DNA of 34,558 nt, taken from Bacillota bacterium. Lineage in GTDB: Bacteria; Bacillota; Limnochordia; Darwinibacteriales; Darwinibacteriaceae. The notes beneath the pieces are model-generated. The model did not search any database, was not told the DNA's origin, and saw only the letters and a program-made list of their open reading frames with translations. Position 1 is the stretch's first letter; each line of letters begins with the position of its first letter. The translations under genes and the position numbers were made by a program. Positions 1 through 10,581 of this stretch are shown piece after piece. The stretch is taken from NCBI GenBank assembly GCA_012521335.1, contig JAAYMM010000050.1:1-34558 (forward strand). Reading direction: 5' to 3'.

Positions 1-601
1 CCGGCGGCCGGCGGTGCAGGCTGTGGGCATCGCTGGCCACAAAGTGCGCCATATCGTGGGTAAGCAGGATGCGGGCCGTCTCGGCCGCACCCGCACCGAA
101 GCGCCCCAGAATGCTGCCTGTGTTCACTTGAATCAGGCAGCCGTGCTCCAGCCAGCTCAAGACTATGTTGGGATCATCCCCGACGGCCCGGTAGCGTTCG
201 GGGTGGGCTACAATGGGGGTAATCCCCATGGTTTGGAGGGCAAAGAAGACTTGATCTGTATACACCGGCACCTGGGACATGGGCAGCTCAATCAGGCAGA
301 ACTTACCCTGCCCGCCGTAGGTGGGCACTTCTTCCCGCTGCAGCTGCAGCAGGGAGCTGTCCATGAGCAGTTCAGCCCCGGGCACCAGTTCGACTTTCAG
401 GCCCTCCTGGGCGAAATGCCGGCGCAGATCTTCCACCTTCTGCTTTACGCCGGTCCAGGTGACGCTGCCGTAAAAGTGGGGAGTGGCACAGATAACCTCG
501 ATGCCGTGCTCCTCCGCATAACGGCCCATGGCCACGGCAGTCTGCAGATCAGCTGCGCCATCATCCACTGCAGGGAGAATGTGGGTATGCAGATCAATCA
601 T
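1..601 (-). CDS. CpsB/CapC-type PHP tyrosine-protein phosphatase, 3' end cut by the window
   Basis: This is a manganese-dependent protein tyrosine phosphatase of the PHP fold (CpsB, CapC, YwqE family). Such enzymes remove phosphate from the tyrosine tail of the partner kinase and so tune exopolysaccharide export. Reading from the ATG at 601 gives 200 codons with no stop before the window edge, so the C-terminus is missing. Visible PHP metal-binding motifs are HTHILP near residue 5, ATPHF near residue 40, HPER near residue 135 and SDAH near residue 192. The start lies 2 bases after the stop of the kinase gene, so the two are probably translated together. The family usually has about 250 residues, so roughly the last fifth is lost. 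Family assignment is firm; the substrate is inferred from the neighbouring kinase. Confidence 0.93.
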   Translation of the reverse strand, partial: MIDLHTHILPAVDDGAADLQTAVAMGRYAEEHGIEVICATPHFYGSVTWTGVKQKVEDLRRHFAQEGLKVELVPGAELLMDSSLLQLQREEVPTYGGQGKFCLIELPMSQVPVYTDQVFFALQTMGITPIVAHPERYRAVGDDPNIVLSWLEHGCLIQVNTGSILGRFGAGAAETARILLTHDMAHFVASDAHSLHRRPP

Positions 602-603
602 GG

Positions 604-1323
604 CTACGATTCCATCTCTTCCCAGTAATAATAGTAATAGTGGTAGTTGGTCTGGTTCTCAAGATTTACCCTGTTGAGCACGACCCCCAACAAGTTGGCA
701 TTCGCCTTTATCAACAGATCTTTGGCGTGGAGTGCCACGTCTTTAGGCGTCTCGTTGGCTCTCACCACCAAGATTGTACCGTCGGCCTGGCTCCCCATGA
801 TCGCAGCATCGGTCACAGCTACGGCCGGCGGTCCATCGAAGAGGACCACATCGTAGAGGTCCCGCAGTTCTTCCACGCAACTCTCCATCGCTCTAGACTG
901 CAGTAGTTCCGCGGGGTTAGGGGGAATAGGACCACCGGGAATCAGGTCCAGTCCCGGAACCCTGGTAGAGATAATGACCTCTTCTAGAGTTGCTTTGCCA
1001 CTTAGATAACCAGTCAATCCTGGAGAGTTCCTAACACCGAAAATTCTGTGCGTAACGGGACGCCTAAGGTCACAGGTGACCAAAATGACCCTCACACCAG
1101 ACTGGGCCCAAGCGGCCGCCAAGTTGGCGGTAACAGTTGATTTCCCCTCGCCCGGCCCAACGCTGGTCACCAGGATGGTCTTGAGTTCTTGATCTGGACT
1201 CGTAAACTGCAGGTTTGTCCTCAGAGTCCTAAATGCTTCACTCGCGATGGCCTTGGGATCACCATCTATAATGAGCGGACGTTCGTCCACCTTGGTATTC
1301 CGCCGTCTACGCACCGACTCCAC
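604..1323 (-). CDS. Bacterial tyrosine kinase (BY-kinase), CpsD/CapB/YwqD family
   Basis: A 239-residue P-loop kinase of the kind that phosphorylates its own tyrosine tail and works with a membrane co-polymerase to set polysaccharide chain length. The family motif EAFRTLRTNLQF is at residues 29-40, Walker A GPGEGKST at 56-63, and the C-terminus holds the tyrosine cluster NYHYYYYYW. Two core motifs deviate: Walker A-prime reads VTCDLRRP (residues 82-89), with Thr83 where BY-kinases normally have the first Asp of DxDxR, and Walker B reads FDGPP rather than DS/TPP. The start is GTG at 1323 behind the ribosome site AGAAGGGG, overlapping the end of the co-polymerase gene by 17 bases. The altered motifs leave open whether the kinase is fully active. 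Confidence 0.92.
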   Translation of the reverse strand: MESVRRRRNTKVDERPLIIDGDPKAIASEAFRTLRTNLQFTSPDQELKTILVTSVGPGEGKSTVTANLAAAWAQSGVRVILVTCDLRRPVTHRIFGVRNSPGLTGYLSGKATLEEVIISTRVPGLDLIPGGPIPPNPAELLQSRAMESCVEELRDLYDVVLFDGPPAVAVTDAAIMGSQADGTILVVRANETPKDVALHAKDLLIKANANLLGVVLNRVNLENQTNYHYYYYYWEEMES

Positions 1324-2746
1324 GTCCCCTTCTAAACGAAAGTCTCCTATGAGTTACCGCGTCTACCTTACTCATGTCAGGTATCTGCCCTAAGACAGGC
1401 AATCCGAGTACGCGTTCCACATCATCCTTGGTGTTCAAAGTGTTGTCCATGAACTCTGCCAAGAAGGCCACACCAACGCCCAGAAACACTCCCAAGACCG
1501 CGCCAATGGCGATGTTCAACTTTACCCGGGGTTTGACGGGCTCTTCTGGGAGAACAGCATCGTCTATCACGTGTACATCCGCCGTCTGCATAGCCTCCGA
1601 AATACGCGCTTCCTCTCTCCTCGTGCGCAGCAGGATGTACAACTCCTCCAGAACCTTAGCCTCGCGCATCAAACGCGCTAACTCCAACTCTCGTGCCGGT
1701 AAGAGGCTTAACTCCTTTTCCCTTTCCGCGATCACTGTTCTTATTGCAGCTTCCCTGGCACTGAGGGCGTTGATCTCTACCTCTAGATTGATCAGCGTAC
1801 CCAAAAGCTGTTGGTAGATGGCGTTCAGTGTTCTTGTTTCGGTGCCGACAACCCGTTCCACTTCTTCTGCTAGCTTGCTCTTAACGTCCTCGATTTCCGC
1901 CTGCAGGGCCAAAACCTCGGGATGCCGTTCGGTGTACTTCTCGCGAGCGCTGGATAGCTTGATCTCAAGGTCCGCCAAGCGGCTTCGATACTGGGTAACA
2001 AAAACGTTGTCGGCTATGGTCGTGGAGGAAATCAGAGTCTCGTCCTGCTCGGCCAAACTGGCCCTAACGTTCCTGATGCGTTCTTCCGTTTCCTGCTTGG
2101 CAATGGTTACTTCGGTTAAGCTGGACTGCAGAGTAACCAAAAGGTCGACCATGGCCAGTGTTTCCTGCGAGGGAGCCAGAACCCCTTGGTCTTCATTGAA
2201 CGCTCTCAGCTTCTCTTCCGCAGCCTTCAGCTCCTCTTCCACCGTACCGAGCTGTTCCTCAATAAACAAGCGCGCCGTTCTACGGTCGTTCTGCTGGTAA
2301 TCCAAGTTCCAAGCGATAAACGTATCTGCAAGGGTGTTCACAACTATCTGAGCGAGTTCCGGCTCTGGGGACTGCATCGAGATTTTCAGAACATCGCTTC
2401 CCTGGACAGGCTGGATACTAACAGCTTTTTCTAGGATTTCCGGGGTGATGTCTTCCCGTCCCACTGTTCTAGTGACCTTCTCCAAAACGGTTCTGCTTTT
2501 CATGATCTGAATGTAGTTCTGCGCTGTATTGCGGCCACTGCCCATCATTCCATCAAAGAGCAGAGACTGCATGTCGGAACTTCCTTCCCGTACAATCACC
2601 GTAGTGAAGGCTTCATAGATGGGGGTGGCCAGCAGACTGTAGAGGGTAACCGCTAAAACGGTTGCTGCAAACACAGCTAAGATCAGTTTCCTCTTCTTGA
2701 CGATTATCTCCCAGTATTCTCGCAGATCCATTTCTTCCATTTCCAT
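1307..2746 (-). CDS. Wzz-type chain-length determinant / polysaccharide co-polymerase (CpsC/YwqC-like)
   Basis: An inner-membrane co-polymerase that sets polysaccharide chain length and activates the partner tyrosine kinase. It has an N-terminal Wzz domain (MDLREYWEIIVKKRK, then a membrane helix), a long charged coiled coil over about residues 150-390, and a second membrane helix near residue 420 (AIGAVLGVFLGVGVAFLAEF), followed by a short cytoplasmic tail. The tail contacts the kinase in this family, and the kinase is encoded next. The chosen ATG at 2746 sits behind GGTGGTGGGAG. The reading frame extends to a GTG at 2758, but that codon lies inside the likely ribosome site. The gene begins just after the stop of the SLBB export gene, so these are one operon. 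Confidence 0.9.
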   Translation of the reverse strand: MEMEEMDLREYWEIIVKKRKLILAVFAATVLAVTLYSLLATPIYEAFTTVIVREGSSDMQSLLFDGMMGSGRNTAQNYIQIMKSRTVLEKVTRTVGREDITPEILEKAVSIQPVQGSDVLKISMQSPEPELAQIVVNTLADTFIAWNLDYQQNDRRTARLFIEEQLGTVEEELKAAEEKLRAFNEDQGVLAPSQETLAMVDLLVTLQSSLTEVTIAKQETEERIRNVRASLAEQDETLISSTTIADNVFVTQYRSRLADLEIKLSSAREKYTERHPEVLALQAEIEDVKSKLAEEVERVVGTETRTLNAIYQQLLGTLINLEVEINALSAREAAIRTVIAEREKELSLLPARELELARLMREAKVLEELYILLRTRREEARISEAMQTADVHVIDDAVLPEEPVKPRVKLNIAIGAVLGVFLGVGVAFLAEFMDNTLNTKDDVERVLGLPVLGQIPDMSKVDAVTHRRLSFRRGRGVGA

Positions 2747-2758
2747 TGCTCCCACCAC

Positions 2759-5443
2759 CTATCGGTCAAAGATGTCGAACAGCGAGTTGGTGAACGAAGT
2801 GATGGTACCGAGGAATCCGAAGATCTTGGTCCAATCAGGCTTCTTCGTCTCTGGCACGTAGATAATATCACCCGGGCGGAGCAGGGGATTCTCCTGCGCA
2901 TCTCCGGTAAACAGCACCTTATCCTGCCCCATGGGTACCTGCTCTGATGCATCCAGCAGCCCACCGCGGTAAATGCCCACATTCTCCAGGGCGGCCCGTT
3001 CTAAAGGCCCGCCGGCTAAAGCGATGGCGTCCATGAGCCTGGCTCCCGCGGGGAGGTTGTACGCCCCGGGGTTCTTCACCATGCCGAGCACTATGATCTG
3101 ACGCTGCACCGCAGGAACATAGATCACATCGCCGCCCGTCAAGGGCAGGTTGTAGGTGCTCTGGGCGTTCATGAGCTCGCCGTAGGTCATCTGCCAGACC
3201 TGTTCCCCGTCCAGGGCCTGCCTGGTGATGACCACCTGTTCGGTGCCCAGATTAGTCTGGAGCCCGCCAGCCTCAGCCAGAATGTCCAGGACCCGTCCTT
3301 GAGGAGGCAGGGTGTATACTCCCGCTCTGACCACATCGCCAAACACGAGCACCCTGTTGTTGGCTTTGGGAACGGACAGTACCTCGCCTCCCCGCAGCTG
3401 GCGCTTGTAATCTGCACCTGTGAGCACATCCAAGTTGACGGTCTCGGAGACCACTCCATCGGGCCCCTCTAGGGTCACAACTACCTGGGCGGGATCTGCA
3501 TCCTCAGTGAATCCTCCGGCCCTTCCGATCAGGTCCAGGTAGGTTTCGCCCGCCCTAAAGGCGTAATAACCGGGGCTGCGCACTTCACCCAGCACCAGGG
3601 CGGTGCGATCGGTACGCGGCACAATAATCACATCTCCGTCCTGCAGAGGACGGTCTGCTGCTAAGAAGCGGTCCTCGTGCAGCTGGCCGAAGTCGATAAT
3701 CTCCACCTGCGCCCCTTCCTCAGTCTGCCTGGTCAGGGAAACATTCTGCTCATCGGCCGTCTCCAGCAGCCCCCCGGCAAGCATAATGGCTTCCAGAAGG
3801 CCGTCGCCGGGCTGGAACTTGTAGTAGCCAGGGCGCTGCACTTCGCCCAGAACTATCACACTGCGCTCAGCGCGGGGAACAACAATCACATCTCCGCTCT
3901 GCAGCGGCAGATTGTCTGCAATAAAGCGGTTTTCCATGAGCTCTCGGAAGTTGAAAGTGATCACCTGGGCGCCATCAGCAGTCTGCCTGCTTAAGGATAC
4001 CTGTTCTTCCCAGGCGTCCTGGGTAAGGCCACCCGCCAAGGCTATAGCATCCAGAAGCCTGTCGCCCCGCCGGAACTGGTAAGATCCGGGCCGGGCCACT
4101 TCGCCCAAGACCAGAACCTGGCGGCTGCCGTCGGGCACGTAGAACACGTCTCCCGGAAGCACCTTTTCGTTTCCGAGTCCCAAGCGCTCCAGCGCGCCCA
4201 GATCGATGGTTCTGGTCACGCCATCACGGAGCAGGGTGAGCTCTTCGCCGGCCCGCTCTGTGGTGCCTCCCGCTTCTGCCAGGAGATCCAAGATTCTGGT
4301 CTGCTCCCGCACAGTAAATGAACCGGGGCTGCGCACTTCACCCAGAACCAGAGCGTTCTGATACCCTTCCGGTACAAAGATCAGATCATCAGGCTGCACA
4401 AGGGGGTTGTCCCCGCCTGCGCTGCCGCTCAGCGCAGGCTGAATGTTGGCCAAGATGATCTCCTGGTCCGCCCCCCGGCGCGTAATGGACACAGCGGAAG
4501 GATCGCCTGTGGGCAGCAGCCCACCTGCCCGCGCGATGATCTCCATGAGGTACGTCTCGCTATGTAAGGGATAGACGCCCGGGCTTCTCACCGCGCCGAG
4601 GACCATCACCTGTTGCTTCTTCGGCACAAAGACAACGTCGTTGGGCTGCAGCTCCAGCGGCTTGCCGCGGCCAGCCAGCAGCTCCTGCACGTTGATGATC
4701 TGCTCCCAGGTTCCGCCTTCAACCTGGCTGGTGACCACAACCCTCTCCAGGTCAGCAGTATCCAGGGCTCCGCCGGCCTCCGCCAGGAGTTCCAGGATAT
4801 CTAATCCTTTGCTTAAGGAGTAGCTCGCCGGCTGGCGCACTTCTCCGAAAATGGCTACGGTGCCCGCAGGCGGCACGAAGATGGTGTCGCCGCTTTCGAT
4901 CAAGGGGTTGGCCGCCAGATCACCAGCTGTCAGAAACTGGTTCACGTCCACCTGCATTACCTCGGTGTGTTCCACGCCGCCCTCATCCAGCACGTAGCGG
5001 GTAATGGTTACGCTGCTCAAGTCAGCAGCGGTATTGGCCCCACCCGCAAGCGCCAACACGTCAGTGAGACGAGAGCCCGCTTTGAGCTGGTAATACCCGG
5101 ACTGCCTAACTTCGCCCAGCATCTGTACCTGCAGGGTGCGGAAATGGGTCACAATCACCGTGACCTGCGGTTTGACGATGAATTCGGAGAGCTGAGTCTG
5201 CAGTTCTGCACTGATCTGCCGCGGAGTCTTGTCCACTGCCCAGATATCTCCCACCAATGGGAAGGTGAGGTAACCATCGGGCCGGACAGCCACTTCTGTG
5301 GTCAGGTCGGCATGACCCCAGACCGTAATGCGCAGTACATCGCCTACGCCCAGGGTGTACTCGCTGGCCGCGGCAGGCAGGATACTGGCCGCCGTCAAAA
5401 CCATGACTACAGCTACCAGAATTCTCGTCTCCAACTTCTTCAT
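2759..5443 (-). CDS. Polysaccharide export protein with nine SLBB repeats (Wza-like)
   Basis: A secreted 894-residue protein with a signal peptide (residues 1-27), a polysaccharide export (Wza N-terminal) domain at about 28-100, and then nine SLBB repeats. Each repeat follows a pattern close to VLGEVRSPGxY, a DxLxxAGG segment, and GDxIxVP. Wza itself has far fewer SLBB-type domains. The C-terminal 25 residues (from DWTKIFGFLG) form a short amphipathic stretch that could insert in a membrane. The family forms the channel or tunnel that carries polymer through the periplasm and outer membrane. It is the first gene of the operon that continues with the co-polymerase, kinase and phosphatase. Ribosome site GAGGTGG precedes the ATG at 5443. 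The role is well supported; how nine repeats are arranged is unknown. Confidence 0.92.
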   Translation of the reverse strand: MKKLETRILVAVVMVLTAASILPAAASEYTLGVGDVLRITVWGHADLTTEVAVRPDGYLTFPLVGDIWAVDKTPRQISAELQTQLSEFIVKPQVTVIVTHFRTLQVQMLGEVRQSGYYQLKAGSRLTDVLALAGGANTAADLSSVTITRYVLDEGGVEHTEVMQVDVNQFLTAGDLAANPLIESGDTIFVPPAGTVAIFGEVRQPASYSLSKGLDILELLAEAGGALDTADLERVVVTSQVEGGTWEQIINVQELLAGRGKPLELQPNDVVFVPKKQQVMVLGAVRSPGVYPLHSETYLMEIIARAGGLLPTGDPSAVSITRRGADQEIILANIQPALSGSAGGDNPLVQPDDLIFVPEGYQNALVLGEVRSPGSFTVREQTRILDLLAEAGGTTERAGEELTLLRDGVTRTIDLGALERLGLGNEKVLPGDVFYVPDGSRQVLVLGEVARPGSYQFRRGDRLLDAIALAGGLTQDAWEEQVSLSRQTADGAQVITFNFRELMENRFIADNLPLQSGDVIVVPRAERSVIVLGEVQRPGYYKFQPGDGLLEAIMLAGGLLETADEQNVSLTRQTEEGAQVEIIDFGQLHEDRFLAADRPLQDGDVIIVPRTDRTALVLGEVRSPGYYAFRAGETYLDLIGRAGGFTEDADPAQVVVTLEGPDGVVSETVNLDVLTGADYKRQLRGGEVLSVPKANNRVLVFGDVVRAGVYTLPPQGRVLDILAEAGGLQTNLGTEQVVITRQALDGEQVWQMTYGELMNAQSTYNLPLTGGDVIYVPAVQRQIIVLGMVKNPGAYNLPAGARLMDAIALAGGPLERAALENVGIYRGGLLDASEQVPMGQDKVLFTGDAQENPLLRPGDIIYVPETKKPDWTKIFGFLGTITSFTNSLFDIFDR

Positions 5444-5549: not shown

Positions 5550-6476
5550 TTAGGGAGTAAGGGCAGGTCTGAAATAGAAGCCGAGCACAGGCACAGCCCG
5601 CTCAGTCTCCACATAGAACTGGGTGTTGGCCTCGATCTGCACATCTTTGCCTTTGACGAAATATCCACCAACGAGCCCTACAGGTCCGAGGAGGATAATC
5701 CCCGCCATGCTGGCTCCGGCGGCGAGCTCCAGGGAGCGGTTCTTCTCCGTTGCCCGCTCATCCACCTTGAGCCGCACCGCAGTACCATCCAAGGCCAGTA
5801 CCGTCCCGAAATCGATCAAGACCCGACCGTCCTTGCCCAAGCGGCCGGCAGCTGTGACCTCCGTCACCGTAGCTACGCTTGTGGTTCCCGCCGGGATGAC
5901 CACCCGTCCGTCCACCATCACATCTTCTGTTATGCGGTAAACCACCTTATCGCCCACCTGGGCAGTGGCAGAATCGATGGTTTTGGTGAGGGCAATCTTC
6001 ACTAGGGTCTGCGCGGGCAGGTTGACCCGCTTCACATCCAGTTTGGTTGTGCCCCACACATCCATCATAAGCTTTTCCGCGCGCTGGGAAATGTTCCCGC
6101 TCTGTTCAACACCGTAGAGCACCAGTTCCAAACCGCGCAGCCTTTCCACCATGGGCTTTTCTCCAGATAGCGTAGCGGAAAAACCCCACTCAGCCAGGTT
6201 CAGCAGCAGCCACAGGCCGCCGTCACCGTCCTGATCCTGGAGGAAAGTGAGCACCCGATCAATGCGCATAACCACTGCGCCTTCCTGGGGCTCGCCGTAA
6301 ATGTCTATCTCCACCTTTTCAATGCGCTCAAGGAGCGCTCCTTCTTGGGCCTGTCCATACAGCAGTTCTTCCACCATCTCCAAGTACGCCAGCGGAGTCA
6401 CATTGGCGGACAGTGTAGAGGGTATCAGTGCTGAGACCAGCAGCAGGCATAACGTAAAAGCGATGCTTTTCCTCAA
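5550..6476 (-). CDS. Secreted protein of unknown function with a three-fold YGxxQxG repeat
   Basis: Not recognised as a named family. The 308 residues start with a signal peptide (cut after about TLSA, residue 24). The N-terminal half carries three copies of a roughly 20-residue motif around LYGQAQEGALLERIEKVE, IYGEPQEGAVVMRIDRV and LYGVEQSGNISQRAEKL. The C-terminal half looks like a beta domain with GDKVVYRITEDV and IPAGTTSVATVTEV, which resembles VirB10/TrbI-type periplasmic beta segments, followed by a glycine-rich hydrophobic stretch (MAGIILLGPVGLVGGYF). The start is TTG behind GGAGGGG with 7 bases between; no ATG or GTG fits better. It is cotranscribed with the putative outer-membrane protein upstream (33-base gap) and lies before the EPS operon. 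An envelope role is only an inference from the signal peptide and neighbours. Confidence 0.72.
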   Translation of the reverse strand: MRKSIAFTLCLLLVSALIPSTLSANVTPLAYLEMVEELLYGQAQEGALLERIEKVEIDIYGEPQEGAVVMRIDRVLTFLQDQDGDGGLWLLLNLAEWGFSATLSGEKPMVERLRGLELVLYGVEQSGNISQRAEKLMMDVWGTTKLDVKRVNLPAQTLVKIALTKTIDSATAQVGDKVVYRITEDVMVDGRVVIPAGTTSVATVTEVTAAGRLGKDGRVLIDFGTVLALDGTAVRLKVDERATEKNRSLELAAGASMAGIILLGPVGLVGGYFVKGKDVQIEANTQFYVETERAVPVLGFYFRPALTP

Positions 6477-6509: not shown

Positions 6510-7757
6510 TTAAAACTTGATGGAAAACGCCGCTTCAGCTTCGGCTCCTAAATCCCGCTCCATAGTGCTGAAATCAATGAGCCGATAGTTGAAGTGCAGA
6601 GAACTATCGTTAAACAGCTCATAGCTGAGTCCCAACTCGGCCACATTCCTAGTAGTGATAGATTCACCATTGGCGGGACCAAGTCCTCCCAGCTCGGCAA
6701 GATTCCACTCCCGGTTAATGCCCAGCCGCACCTGTCCCCTGTTCACCGGCACGGTAACTCCCAGCGAAGTGACGAGAGGCGCCTCTTGGTCACTCTCATC
6801 GGCGGCAGCTCCCTGAAGCCTTTCCCGGAGCTTATACCCCGCGCTCAAGGTGAACATGTTGGCCCAATCCCAGCTCACATCCAGGGAAGTGCTGGCCGTT
6901 TTGGGCACCAACTGCGGGTCAACGGCGAGATCCACTGCCGTCTGCAGGGAGACATCGCCCACCTTGACGGAAAGGCCGTAGCCTGCCGCCGCTCCTTCTC
7001 CGCCTTCATCCTCAATCGGAGCTGCCCGCAGCGCTCCGCTCAGCTCGAGGTTCCCGATCTGGATCGGCCTCAGCTCTTGGGCGGGAGATTCCTGGGCCAC
7101 CACACTGAACGCGGGCGGCAGCAGGCTGGAAGAGGAAAACTGCCCCGTCCAGAGGCTGCGGGTCTCCTGGGCAGCGGTCACACTTTCTAGGACCTCTTCA
7201 GCTTCTCGAGAAAGGGAAAAACTGGCTGCCTCCGCTTTGCGCGCCGCAGCCAGCGCCTGTTCAGAGTAGAGCAGCGGCCGGCTGGGCAGGGACACTCCCC
7301 GCTTCTCCGCCCAATCCTGGGCGTAGAGCAGGTTGAAGTCCTGGACATCAAAGCCCAAGACCTCCAGCTCGTCCTGGAACTCCAAGACCAGCCGGTAGAG
7401 GGTCTCTACCTCGCCCACGGTGAACTGCTTTTCCGGCGCTACCCTCTGATTGTAGGTAAAGATCATGTCATCCAAGTACACACTGCGGCTGACGCCGAAT
7501 CGGCGCGAATCCAACCGGTCCTCACCGCTGATATGCTGCAGCAGCCTGGCTACCAGCAGGGCTTCCTGGCTGCGGTTGGGCTCAGCGGGGACGCTGAAAC
7601 CAGGGATCTCTCTCCTTTCCCCCAGAGCCCGGATGGCCGCGCTGGTCCAGCTCTCCTCAGAGCTGCCGCTGCCAAAGGGAGAGCCGGCCCAAGCGCCCGC
7701 GCTGAAACCAAAGATCAAGATAAGCATAAAACCTACAACTGCCCATCTGCAGCGCAC
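6510..7757 (-). CDS. Predicted outer-membrane beta-barrel protein, function unknown
   Basis: About 415 residues. The reading frame opens further upstream, but a GTG at 7757 behind GGGGGGAG gives a clean signal peptide (VRCRWAVVGFMLILIF, then GAWA), so that start is chosen. The middle part is helical and polar. The last roughly 190 residues alternate hydrophobic and polar residues in strand-like segments such as GLSVKVGDVSLQTAVDL and SLHFNYRLIDF, and the protein ends in Phe (AFSIKF), as outer-membrane barrels recognised by BamA often do. No specific family was recognised. It forms a probable two-gene unit with the secreted repeat protein that follows it. Confidence 0.65.
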   Translation of the reverse strand: MRCRWAVVGFMLILIFGFSAGAWAGSPFGSGSSEESWTSAAIRALGERREIPGFSVPAEPNRSQEALLVARLLQHISGEDRLDSRRFGVSRSVYLDDMIFTYNQRVAPEKQFTVGEVETLYRLVLEFQDELEVLGFDVQDFNLLYAQDWAEKRGVSLPSRPLLYSEQALAAARKAEAASFSLSREAEEVLESVTAAQETRSLWTGQFSSSSLLPPAFSVVAQESPAQELRPIQIGNLELSGALRAAPIEDEGGEGAAAGYGLSVKVGDVSLQTAVDLAVDPQLVPKTASTSLDVSWDWANMFTLSAGYKLRERLQGAAADESDQEAPLVTSLGVTVPVNRGQVRLGINREWNLAELGGLGPANGESITTRNVAELGLSYELFNDSSLHFNYRLIDFSTMERDLGAEAEAAFSIKF

Positions 7758-7856
7758 AACTCTCCCCCCTTCTCCCCAAGTATCAAGATCAACTCGTATT
7801 TCTCCAAACGCCAATGAAAACCTTCCTGTTGTTAAGACTTTCCAGCAGTTGCCAGT

Positions 7857-8367: not shown

Positions 8368-10581
8368 TTAGAAGCTTACGCTCAGGCCAGCCTTGTAGCC
8401 AAACTCGTTGGTAAGGGTACCAGTGTTGGCATCCTTCGGAATGGTCTGCTTTACAGTGCCGCCCAAGGTAAGTTTGACATCCTTGGTGAAGGCATAGGCC
8501 AGATCAATGTTGTGGGTCAGAGTGTAATCACGATCAGTCTGGCCATCCTTGATGATCGGCAGTACGAAAGCTGCTTTGTAGTCTACGTCGAACTTGGCGC
8601 TGCTCAGATCGATACCGTAGCCAACGTTAGCGGTAAAGGTAGCGTTGTCTTTGTCGCCGTAGTGAGCCGCGTTCTTCCAGTTGGGTTTGCTCTCGGCCCA
8701 AGCGTTGTGCTCGTATGCTGCGCTGACGCCATAACGCAGACCCAATTCATTCTCCTGGGCAACGGCCAGCTTAGCCAGGGCACGGAGCTTCGTTTCGGGG
8801 TTGACTTTGTTCTCCTGGGCACCCATGACTTCACCGGACAAGGTGACGGGTACGAACAGGTCGAACTTGGCGGATGCATCAGCCTTGAAGGCGAAGAAGC
8901 CAGTCGGGCCTTCAGCAACGGCGCTCGGATCATCATCGTTAACAGCATGGGTCAAGCCTTCATAGTAGGCCCGAGCATTCAGGCTGAGAGGACCAAACTT
9001 GGTGCCGAGACCGCCCTCGACTCCGAGTCTGTAGTTTCCTTTGTCGAGAAGTTCACTCATCACAGTGTAATTCTTCTCTTGGTATGCAACCTTAGCATCC
9101 AGGCTCAGGTCACCGAAAGTGGCCTTCACAGTTCCTACGCCGATGTAGTTCTTATCTTGCTGGCTGAAGTCCATCGCGAAGTCACCAGTGTACTCGATAC
9201 CAGCCACGGTGCCGAACAGGCCGATGCCGGCAGCATACTTCTCAAACATGCCGCTGTAAGGCTTATGGGCGGCTCCTTTGAGCTTCAGGCCAAGCTCGGG
9301 GATGAACTTGTAGGACAGAGCCACAGCACCATCCGCCGCTGTCTTGTCGTCAGCACCGGCAAAGAGTTCTAGTGTGAGGTCGTCAATGATTTCAACTTTG
9401 GCCACGCCGCCAAATTTGTAGTGGTTGGAAGCGAGTACATAGCCGAAAGGCGACAGATTGCCTTTGTCTACATAACCAACCAGCAGGCGCTTGAGCGGAG
9501 TGGTGGAGGTTACTTCCACACCATACTTGTTCAGCTCTGCAAAAGCGTCCTCGGTCTGAGGAGCCAGCTTCCAATCTACGAACGCCTTGACATTGGTGGC
9601 TTCGGAGGCCTTGACGTTCAGGTTCAACTTTCCAGTCTGGGTAAACACAAACTCAGGTTTGTCGATTTCCTTCTCACCCGTCAAGCTCAGGCTGCCGGAG
9701 AACTGTACCTTCTCCAGTTCAGCAACGGTGGTCTTCAGGCCAGCGACGTCTTCCTTCAGGGTAGCTACATCGCCGTCAATCTCATCTACCCAGTCAGACA
9801 GGGCAGCGATCATGGCTCTGTTCTCGTTGATGAGCAGTTCCAGCCTCTGTACTTGAGTCCGGATCAGAGCCTCAGCGATGAACTCTACGTCTTCCTTGGA
9901 GAGCTCAGGAGTGGTGGCTACTACGCGCTCGATGATAGTGGTTTCCTTGGCAGCGGCAGCAGCTTCCACGATGGCCTCTTCGATCCTCTTAGCGATGAGC
10001 TCTTCGATCTCATCCATGGAAGGTACTTCTACCTCAGGCTGATTCTTGAGCTGCTCGAGGTCGTAGCGGATGCCATCGATCAGGCCGAGCATCCTGGCTT
10101 CGAGATAAGCCATGTCGCCTTCAAGAGCTTCAACAGCAACTTGGTTGGCGCGTACGAGAGCGGCCGCCTCCTCATCCAGCTCTTCCTGAACAATTACTCT
10201 CTCCACAATGGTAGTCTCCACAGGCTGCTTCTCGGCAGCAGCTGCAGCGGCGGCCTTAGCGGCTTCGATCTCAGCCATCAGCTCAGCTTTGACTTTGTCA
10301 AGCTCGGGCAGGAGATCCATAGCAGCGATTTGGCCTTCCAGGCGCTGCAGAGCACGGGCGAACACCATAGCGGCCTCATAACGGGTCATCATCCTGGAGC
10401 CGCCATAGGTGCCATCCGGATAGCCTTCGATCAAGCCGGCAGCGGCCAATTGCACGATTGCATCGTATGCCCAGTGATCAGCGGGAACATCCGCGAACGG
10501 GCTGGCAAATGCCGGTGTAAATGTACTAGCCATAAGCACGATGGCTAATACCAGGGCAAACTTCTTAAACTTCATGTTCAT
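8368..10581 (-). CDS. SLH-domain outer-membrane porin, OmpM-like
   Basis: A 737-residue protein of the type that forms a pore in the outer membrane of diderm Firmicutes and ties that membrane to the cell wall. It has a signal peptide (residues 1-26, ending AFA) and one SLH domain at about 27-85 (FADVPADHWAYDAI, YPDGTYGGSRMMTRYEAA), which binds secondary polymers on peptidoglycan. A helical coiled-coil stalk runs over about 90-300, and the rest is a beta-barrel of alternating residues that ends in Phe (KAGLSVSF). Ribosome site AAGGGGG is 5 bases before the ATG. It is transcribed alone, from the promoter near 10880 through a long leader to the terminator at 8309-8337, as expected for an abundant protein. 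Close homologues are the OmpM proteins of Negativicutes. Confidence 0.93.
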   Translation of the reverse strand: MNMKFKKFALVLAIVLMASTFTPAFASPFADVPADHWAYDAIVQLAAAGLIEGYPDGTYGGSRMMTRYEAAMVFARALQRLEGQIAAMDLLPELDKVKAELMAEIEAAKAAAAAAAEKQPVETTIVERVIVQEELDEEAAALVRANQVAVEALEGDMAYLEARMLGLIDGIRYDLEQLKNQPEVEVPSMDEIEELIAKRIEEAIVEAAAAAKETTIIERVVATTPELSKEDVEFIAEALIRTQVQRLELLINENRAMIAALSDWVDEIDGDVATLKEDVAGLKTTVAELEKVQFSGSLSLTGEKEIDKPEFVFTQTGKLNLNVKASEATNVKAFVDWKLAPQTEDAFAELNKYGVEVTSTTPLKRLLVGYVDKGNLSPFGYVLASNHYKFGGVAKVEIIDDLTLELFAGADDKTAADGAVALSYKFIPELGLKLKGAAHKPYSGMFEKYAAGIGLFGTVAGIEYTGDFAMDFSQQDKNYIGVGTVKATFGDLSLDAKVAYQEKNYTVMSELLDKGNYRLGVEGGLGTKFGPLSLNARAYYEGLTHAVNDDDPSAVAEGPTGFFAFKADASAKFDLFVPVTLSGEVMGAQENKVNPETKLRALAKLAVAQENELGLRYGVSAAYEHNAWAESKPNWKNAAHYGDKDNATFTANVGYGIDLSSAKFDVDYKAAFVLPIIKDGQTDRDYTLTHNIDLAYAFTKDVKLTLGGTVKQTIPKDANTGTLTNEFGYKAGLSVSF

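Follow-up and report, generated by a model that had tools for sequence, protein, structure and literature searches.

The closest described relatives of the exporter analyzed here are the OPX (Wza-type) polysaccharide export proteins, among which E. coli Wza, a class 1 member, carries a Poly_export domain followed by two SLBB domains. In the Wza-Wzc complex the outer-membrane OPX tube, 140 Å in length, is docked on the inner-membrane co-polymerase, forming one continuous channel (PMC12881504). Among published OPX proteins, SLBB domains number 1-14 in class 1 members and 1-7 in those of class 3 (PMC9603273). The matching of such tubes to the periplasm has so far been examined only as OPX length against thickness in tomograms, with no link found: in 35 Gram-negative species, Saidi et al. 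reported OPX length and measured periplasm thickness to be uncorrelated (Pearson 0.145, 92 pairs), and likewise for class 1 alone (0.07, 33 pairs) (PMC9603273). Their comparison included all OPX classes and used whole protein length, and the passages of their article available to us give no count of OmpM-tethered diderm Bacillota (PMC9603273). In Veillonella, OmpM is a trimer composed of an SLH domain, a coiled-coil stalk and a 16-stranded barrel, which ties the outer membrane to peptidoglycan (PMC10628300), and stalk length can therefore serve as an independent gauge of the gap between the two.

The window, as we call the whole analyzed stretch of 34,558 nucleotides, belongs to a metagenome-derived genome of the diderm Bacillota type (1.72 Mb, 93 contigs, 95% complete), whose closest named relatives are Bacillota genomes from anaerobic digesters. 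It holds a minus-strand outer-membrane gene cluster encoding MreB, flagellar rod and P/L-ring proteins (FlgI, an FlgA chaperone, FlgH), BamA, LptF/LptG, LptC-like proteins, LpxB and an OmpM-like tether, together with a RuvX-like protein and two secreted proteins, followed by the exporter, Wzz, a kinase and a CpsB-type phosphatase (Table 1).

Table 1. Position of the exporter, its parts and neighboring genes in the window.
Feature	Position	Strand	Evidence or remark
CpsB/CapC-type phosphatase, cut by window end	2..601	minus	PF19567 CpsB_CapC
Separate tyrosine autokinase, 239 aa	604..1323	minus	TIGR01007 above cut-off
Wzz/GNVR chain-length determinant (co-polymerase), 483 aa, separate from kinase	1307..2758	minus	domain matches
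OPX (Wza-type) polysaccharide export protein, 894 aa	2759..5443	minus	ORF, domains, fold match to Wza
Conserved hydrophobic tail at the C terminus (residues 865-894), perhaps an outer-membrane helix	2762..2851	minus	low model confidence
Nine tandem SLBB repeats, residues 105-864	2852..5131	minus	Pfam and own parse
SLBB repeats 5 and 6, closest pair (58-60% identical)	3617..4132	minus	relatives gain or lose repeats in this central part
Poly_export (PF02563), residues 24-99	5147..5374	minus	Pfam
N-terminal signal sequence, residues 1-27, end A-A-S	5363..5443	minus	translation read by eye; model helix 2-20
TrbI/VirB10-like protein, directly upstream of exporter, in relatives too	5550..6476	minus	match below Pfam cut-off
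Secreted protein, weak porin-like C-terminal half, syntenic with exporter	6510..7814	minus	Porin_4 E 0.0049, below cut-off
OmpM-like outer-membrane tether, 737 aa: SLH domain, then predicted helical stalk and C-terminal barrel region	8368..10581	minus	Pfam, composition
Stalk of the OmpM-like protein, 212 residues from SLH domain to barrel	9700..10335	minus	~31.5 nm if continuous coiled coil

The exporter is the only Poly_export protein of its host genome (PF02563, E 3.5e-25 for the whole protein) and has the class 1 order of domains, Poly_export and then SLBBs, with nine of the latter in place of the two of Wza. This number, already read in the initial annotation, was borne out by Pfam, in which two SLBB models each match nine stretches (PF10531, 340.8 bits; PF22461, 307.5 bits), and by our own parse, which delimited nine repeats of 79-88 residues each with mutual identities of 25-58%; none of 200 shuffles of the protein reached the repeat profile. 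Folded alone, the exporter gave a pLDDT of 33.2, and folded with 11 relatives a pLDDT of 72.5 and a pTM of 0.31, at which the domain-to-domain arrangement is not trustworthy. In the latter model each repeat shows the same strand-helix pattern, and residues 23-276 match Wza (Z 17.7, rmsd 5.9 Å, 244 residues aligned), with the first SLBBs superposing on those that form rings in Wza. As Wza was matched by both fold and sequence (1.3e-23), the placement of the exporter in the OPX family is secure, and the nine-SLBB protein itself is a variant of known OPX proteins; its repeat number was rejected as a novelty in itself, since 1-14 SLBBs have already been published (PMC9603273). The class 2 mark GfcC (PF06251) was not among its Pfam matches, only a single-domain fold resemblance being found, as expected of SLBBs. 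No other long SLBB array from the PDB appeared among the Foldseek matches listed, which is a weak absence.

Differences from Wza lie at both ends of the protein and in the neighboring genes. No lipobox cysteine was seen in the signal sequence when the translation was read by eye, the kinase is encoded by a separate gene, and Wza_C (PF18412) was not matched by Pfam in the last 119 residues at E values up to 10, where a conserved hydrophobic tail is found instead. This tail (about residues 869-894), which is modeled as a helix with low confidence and recurs in almost all relatives with several SLBBs, had been described as amphipathic. Its conservation and hydrophobicity stand; its hydrophobic moment exceeded most shuffles in the window's exporter (122 of 5000 reached it), but of seven relatives tested the majority did not show this, so that the term amphipathic is only weakly supported. 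With Wza_C unmatched, the tail is no more than a possible class 1 outer-membrane helix. The exporter passes the NCBIfam cut-offs for the EpsE/XrtA (PEP-CTERM) system (TIGR03028, 403 vs 262.65 bits; TIGR03027, 355 vs 180) because the score sums seven matched repeat stretches. For this reason the EpsE name was rejected as settling its identity, and other multi-SLBB exporters may be wrongly named EpsE or PEP-CTERM exporters by such summed scores.

The Wzz-kinase-phosphatase set mentioned in the initial annotation was found as three separate genes, the last incomplete at the window end. The Wzz protein, whose length ranges from 471 to 515 aa across 24 relatives, resembles the XrtA-type chain-length determinant, with a score just below the model cut-off. 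The TrbI-like gene, whose product carries a repeated helical motif, adjoins the exporter in 29 of the 30 loci of the window's order; Wzz does so in 25 of 30, and in the remaining loci the contig ends first. Every locus on a sufficiently long contig retains the order TrbI-like gene, exporter, Wzz. In three genomes (G058, G060 and G059; loci L128, L129 and L132) the exporter and the TrbI-like gene are separated by a ParB-like gene.

Poly_export is carried by 30 of the 36 genomes of the window's order. The number of SLBBs ranges from 1 to 28 among relatives, 7-14 in this order and 1-20 in the phylum set. Free variation among close strains, which the initial annotation would have counted against a tube, is not what is found: the six genomes of the window's genus have only 9 or 10, and so does a second genus, and the tube idea therefore survives. 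Gains and losses map to the center of the array. Compared with the window's nine, each of the four 10-SLBB relatives examined (G015, G017, G018 and G030) carries a second repeat of the repeat-6 type, one of repeats 6-7 is missing in an 8-SLBB relative and both are missing in a 7-SLBB relative, and the ends (1-2-3-4 and 8-9) are constant in the relatives examined. The duplicated repeats of G030 share 95% identity and three central repeats of G014 share 79-90%; the array is therefore still changing by tandem duplication in its middle. The largest exporter, with 28 SLBBs and about 2440 aa (G054, from the class outside the order; L161 and L135), lies in two contig pieces (9 + 19 SLBBs) that share 16 bases at their ends and are the sole pieces with a head and a tail. 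In two related genomes (G061 and G062; L130 and L131), one of them a single-contig genome, a frame change splits the exporter into two overlapping frames.

The OmpM-like protein of the window appears to have its parts in the same order as Veillonella OmpM, with an SLH domain recognized by PF00395 (39.2 bits), a composition change point and a C-terminal F that fit a stalk followed by a barrel, and a barrel sequence unrecognized by Pfam, which returned no porin match. The stalk of Veillonella OmpM1 has about 50 residues (R64-R113, PMC10628300), in contrast to 212 in the window. In the OmpM-like proteins of G058, G060 and G059 the SLH domain is hardly recognizable, with stalk and barrel retained.

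A first comparison of SLBB number with stalk length in 14 genomes gave r 0.93, much of it from one clade (f3 g14), and for this reason the sample was widened and corrected for phylogeny. Stalk length is the count of residues between the SLH domain and the barrel and not a measured length, and parts of the stalk may not be straight coiled coil. Its boundaries were set by alignment in the order, by a motif elsewhere and by composition for G137; composition fell within 12 residues of alignment or motif in 10 of 12 checks, the other two (G000 and G058) being off by 33 and 26. Where a genome had several OmpM paralogues, the best profile match outside the conserved cluster was taken. From the order, 24 of 30 genomes were used, a part being broken or missing in G007, G012, G020, G021, G022 and G024. 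The class outside the order contributed 5 of 11 genomes with Poly_export, the others having a broken part (G059), a membrane-helix tether (G061-G064) or an OmpM that was not included (G071). Of 50 such genomes in the phylum outside the class, 36 were screened for OmpM and 14 lay outside the screen; 18 were used, and those left out had membrane-helix tethers (G078, G124, G162, G195 and G224), broken parts (G289, G317, G340 and G379) or no usable barrel OmpM (G143, G208, G257, G261, G281, G328, G363, G392 and G413). The genomes are not random, long OPX frames having been favored. G270 was entered with 9 SLBBs, its HMM count; using 10 instead barely alters the figures.

In the resulting 47 genomes from 19 families, SLBB number (1-28) and stalk length (39-676 residues) were strongly correlated (Pearson 0.908, Spearman 0.867), a value reached in none of 10,000 permutations; family means gave 0.921. 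The correlation survived phylogenetic correction: independent contrasts on an rpoB tree, covering 45 taxa as two genomes lacked rpoB, gave 0.894, with 31 of 36 non-zero contrasts of the same sign. Contrasts restricted to the window's order (0.882, 23 taxa), to genomes outside it (0.897, 22 taxa) or to the set without G237 and three giants (0.871, 41 taxa) were similar. The 24 order genomes alone gave a Pearson coefficient of 0.893 and 23.3 stalk residues per SLBB. Applied to the 28-SLBB genome G054, whose OmpM has 1377 aa, this line predicts 656 residues (675 found); it predicts 191 for G041 (213 found), 261 for G053 (273 found), and 354 and 377 for G058 and G060, with 15 and 16 SLBBs (297 and 302 found).

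Other genes of these clusters did not follow in length. The length of Wzz gave a Spearman coefficient of 0.24 and a Pearson coefficient of 0.60 driven by extremes (contrasts 0.275, p 0.24), and that of DUF3084 gave 0.28 and 0.65, again through extremes. Spearman coefficients were -0.31 for the kinase, -0.06 for the TrbI-like protein and -0.20 for H434, and the OmpM barrel itself gave a Pearson coefficient of 0.29. The exception to the rule is G237 (L209 and L210), in which a single SLBB accompanies a 230-residue stalk; its exporter is perhaps of a different export design. Single steps are not matched residue for residue, G030 having gained a repeat with a stalk just 4 residues longer than that of its sister G031, and G008 having one SLBB more than three congeners with no longer stalk, which implies a slack of about one ring.

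Converted at 0.1485 nm per coiled-coil residue, the 47 genomes follow a line of 3.43 nm per SLBB + 3.0, or 3.70 nm per SLBB - 0.4 when G237 is left out (residual SD 6.2 nm). Wza has four tiers, over which its 140 Å amount to about 35 Å each. The rise of 3.4-3.7 nm per SLBB fits this ring size. By calculation, the nine SLBBs of the window's exporter alone would extend about 300 Å, against 140 Å for the OPX part of the Wza-Wzc complex (PMC12881504).

As repeat number follows tether length across relatives, the exporter has the look of a tube made to fit the depth it has to cross. We consider it likely that it is an OPX tube of a Poly_export ring and stacked SLBB rings, the number of which evolved to suit the distance between peptidoglycan and outer membrane. 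Such a class-1-like translocon would have stacked, symmetric rings, stand on an ordinary Wzz co-polymerase and terminate in the outer membrane by way of its C-terminal helix. Ring number would be adjusted in evolution, at about 3.4-3.7 nm per SLBB, to a gap set by the OmpM stalk, with OmpM acting as the cause and not as a second follower of periplasm depth. Length would change by duplication or loss of central repeats, keeping constant both the docking end (Poly_export and repeats 1-4) and the membrane end (the last two repeats and the tail). The guess of a length-adapted export tube in the initial annotation was thus largely right: the covariation with the OmpM stalk speaks for its long tube, and its suggestion that no separate long co-polymerase would be involved found no support, since Wzz has an ordinary 483 aa and, given its XrtA-type resemblance, a normal co-polymerase is the most likely docking site of the tube. 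Because Saidi et al. compared all classes by whole length, their null result and the present correlation may both hold. A search of the open-access literature yielded no paper that ties the number of SLBBs to the length of the OmpM stalk and, as far as that search reached, the new element is an exporter repeat number that keeps pace with the gap-setting tether. Two independent proteins of one cell would thereby agree in length over at least a five-fold range.

Both lengths might also be set by a third factor, for instance cell-wall thickness or another tether; OmpM would then not be the cause, and the exporter would still be a spanning tube. We regard this as rather unlikely; the data are correlations, nothing in them speaks decisively against it, and it differs from an OmpM-set tube only in causal direction. 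It is favored by families f23 and f14, in which the position of OmpM near the exporter is occupied by a barrel-less SLH-coil protein that has a membrane helix at its C terminus (L169, L170, L171, L173 and L174; L127 and L213-L215). In all five f23 genomes the coil (171, 182, 189, 219 and 290 residues) likewise lengthens with the SLBB array (Pearson 0.88); a second f23 protein of the same kind is constant at 147-160 residues in the four genomes read.

An exporter that does not span the gap, and instead forms a periplasmic or outer-membrane complex passing the polymer to a neighboring β-barrel such as the syntenic secreted protein with the weak Porin_4 match, appears improbable to us. Class 3 OPX proteins do pair with barrel porins (PMC9603273), and the failure to detect Wza_C in the exporter agrees with a hand-over of this kind; however, the hydrophobic tail is conserved in nearly all multi-SLBB relatives, and such a design would need no length-matched exporter.

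SLBB domains were first defined as ligand-binding. They are also predicted to contact the polymer in OPX proteins (PMC9603273), so the repeats could be a flexible chain that binds or guides polysaccharide, their number reflecting polymer chemistry or length and the link to OmpM being indirect. The low pTM of the model leaves room for a chain, and the length of Wzz, which might follow polymer length, is constant. We nevertheless judge this reading quite improbable, as it offers no reason why each repeat should match 3.4-3.7 nm of tether in 19 families, and the first SLBBs superpose on ring-forming ones of Wza.

In the four genomes compared, tethers of another material also fit the nanometer line. 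In a class of another phylum, the OmpM-like stalks contain collagen-like G-x-y triplets, for which 0.286 nm per residue was used. The stalk of G454 then measures 57.1 nm with 16 SLBBs (the two lines predict 57.8/58.7), those of G493 and G499 18.7 and 22.0 nm with 5 SLBBs (20.1/18.1), and that of G459 26.0 nm with 6 SLBBs, the sixth cut by the locus end (23.5/21.8). Each of these stalks was paired with the counted exporter only; as these armatimonadote genomes have several Poly_export frames, of which those of 900-1100 aa were uncounted, the fit is a lead and not proof. Long stalks and long frames also occur together in G463 and G465, in which SLBBs were not counted in full. Shared ancestry, or a lineage's taste for repeat expansion that lengthens both proteins with no functional link, is very improbable: close genomes share values, much of the first signal came from clade f3 g14 and the giants G054, G147 and G215 have both proteins long, but the rpoB-tree contrasts hold at r 0.87-0.91 in five of five subsets with the SLBB-stalk pair, DUF3084 and Wzz do not follow beyond extremes, and the nanometer fit extends to another phylum whose stalks are of a different material.

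More tentatively, and with somewhat more doubt than belief, we propose that SLBB number could be a general readout of periplasm depth across phyla and tether materials, coiled coil or collagen-like, with each SLBB standing for about 3.5 nm of gap and depths ranging from about 6 nm at 2 SLBBs to about 100 nm at 28. For G054, the 28 SLBBs and the 675-residue stalk would imply a gap near 100 nm. If this held, some lineages would have periplasms near 100 nm deep, and envelope depth would be readable from two genes in uncultured bacteria, including lineages that nobody has grown. Each genome would yield a prediction testable by tomography, and exporters of 2-28 rings would constitute a natural series of tubes for structural work. 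In an armatimonadote class (among others at loci L222, L264 and L260), the collagen-like G-x-y stalks of OmpM-like SLH proteins have ~165-173 residues in two genomes whose exporters are very long, and 36-60 residues in the other genomes measured.
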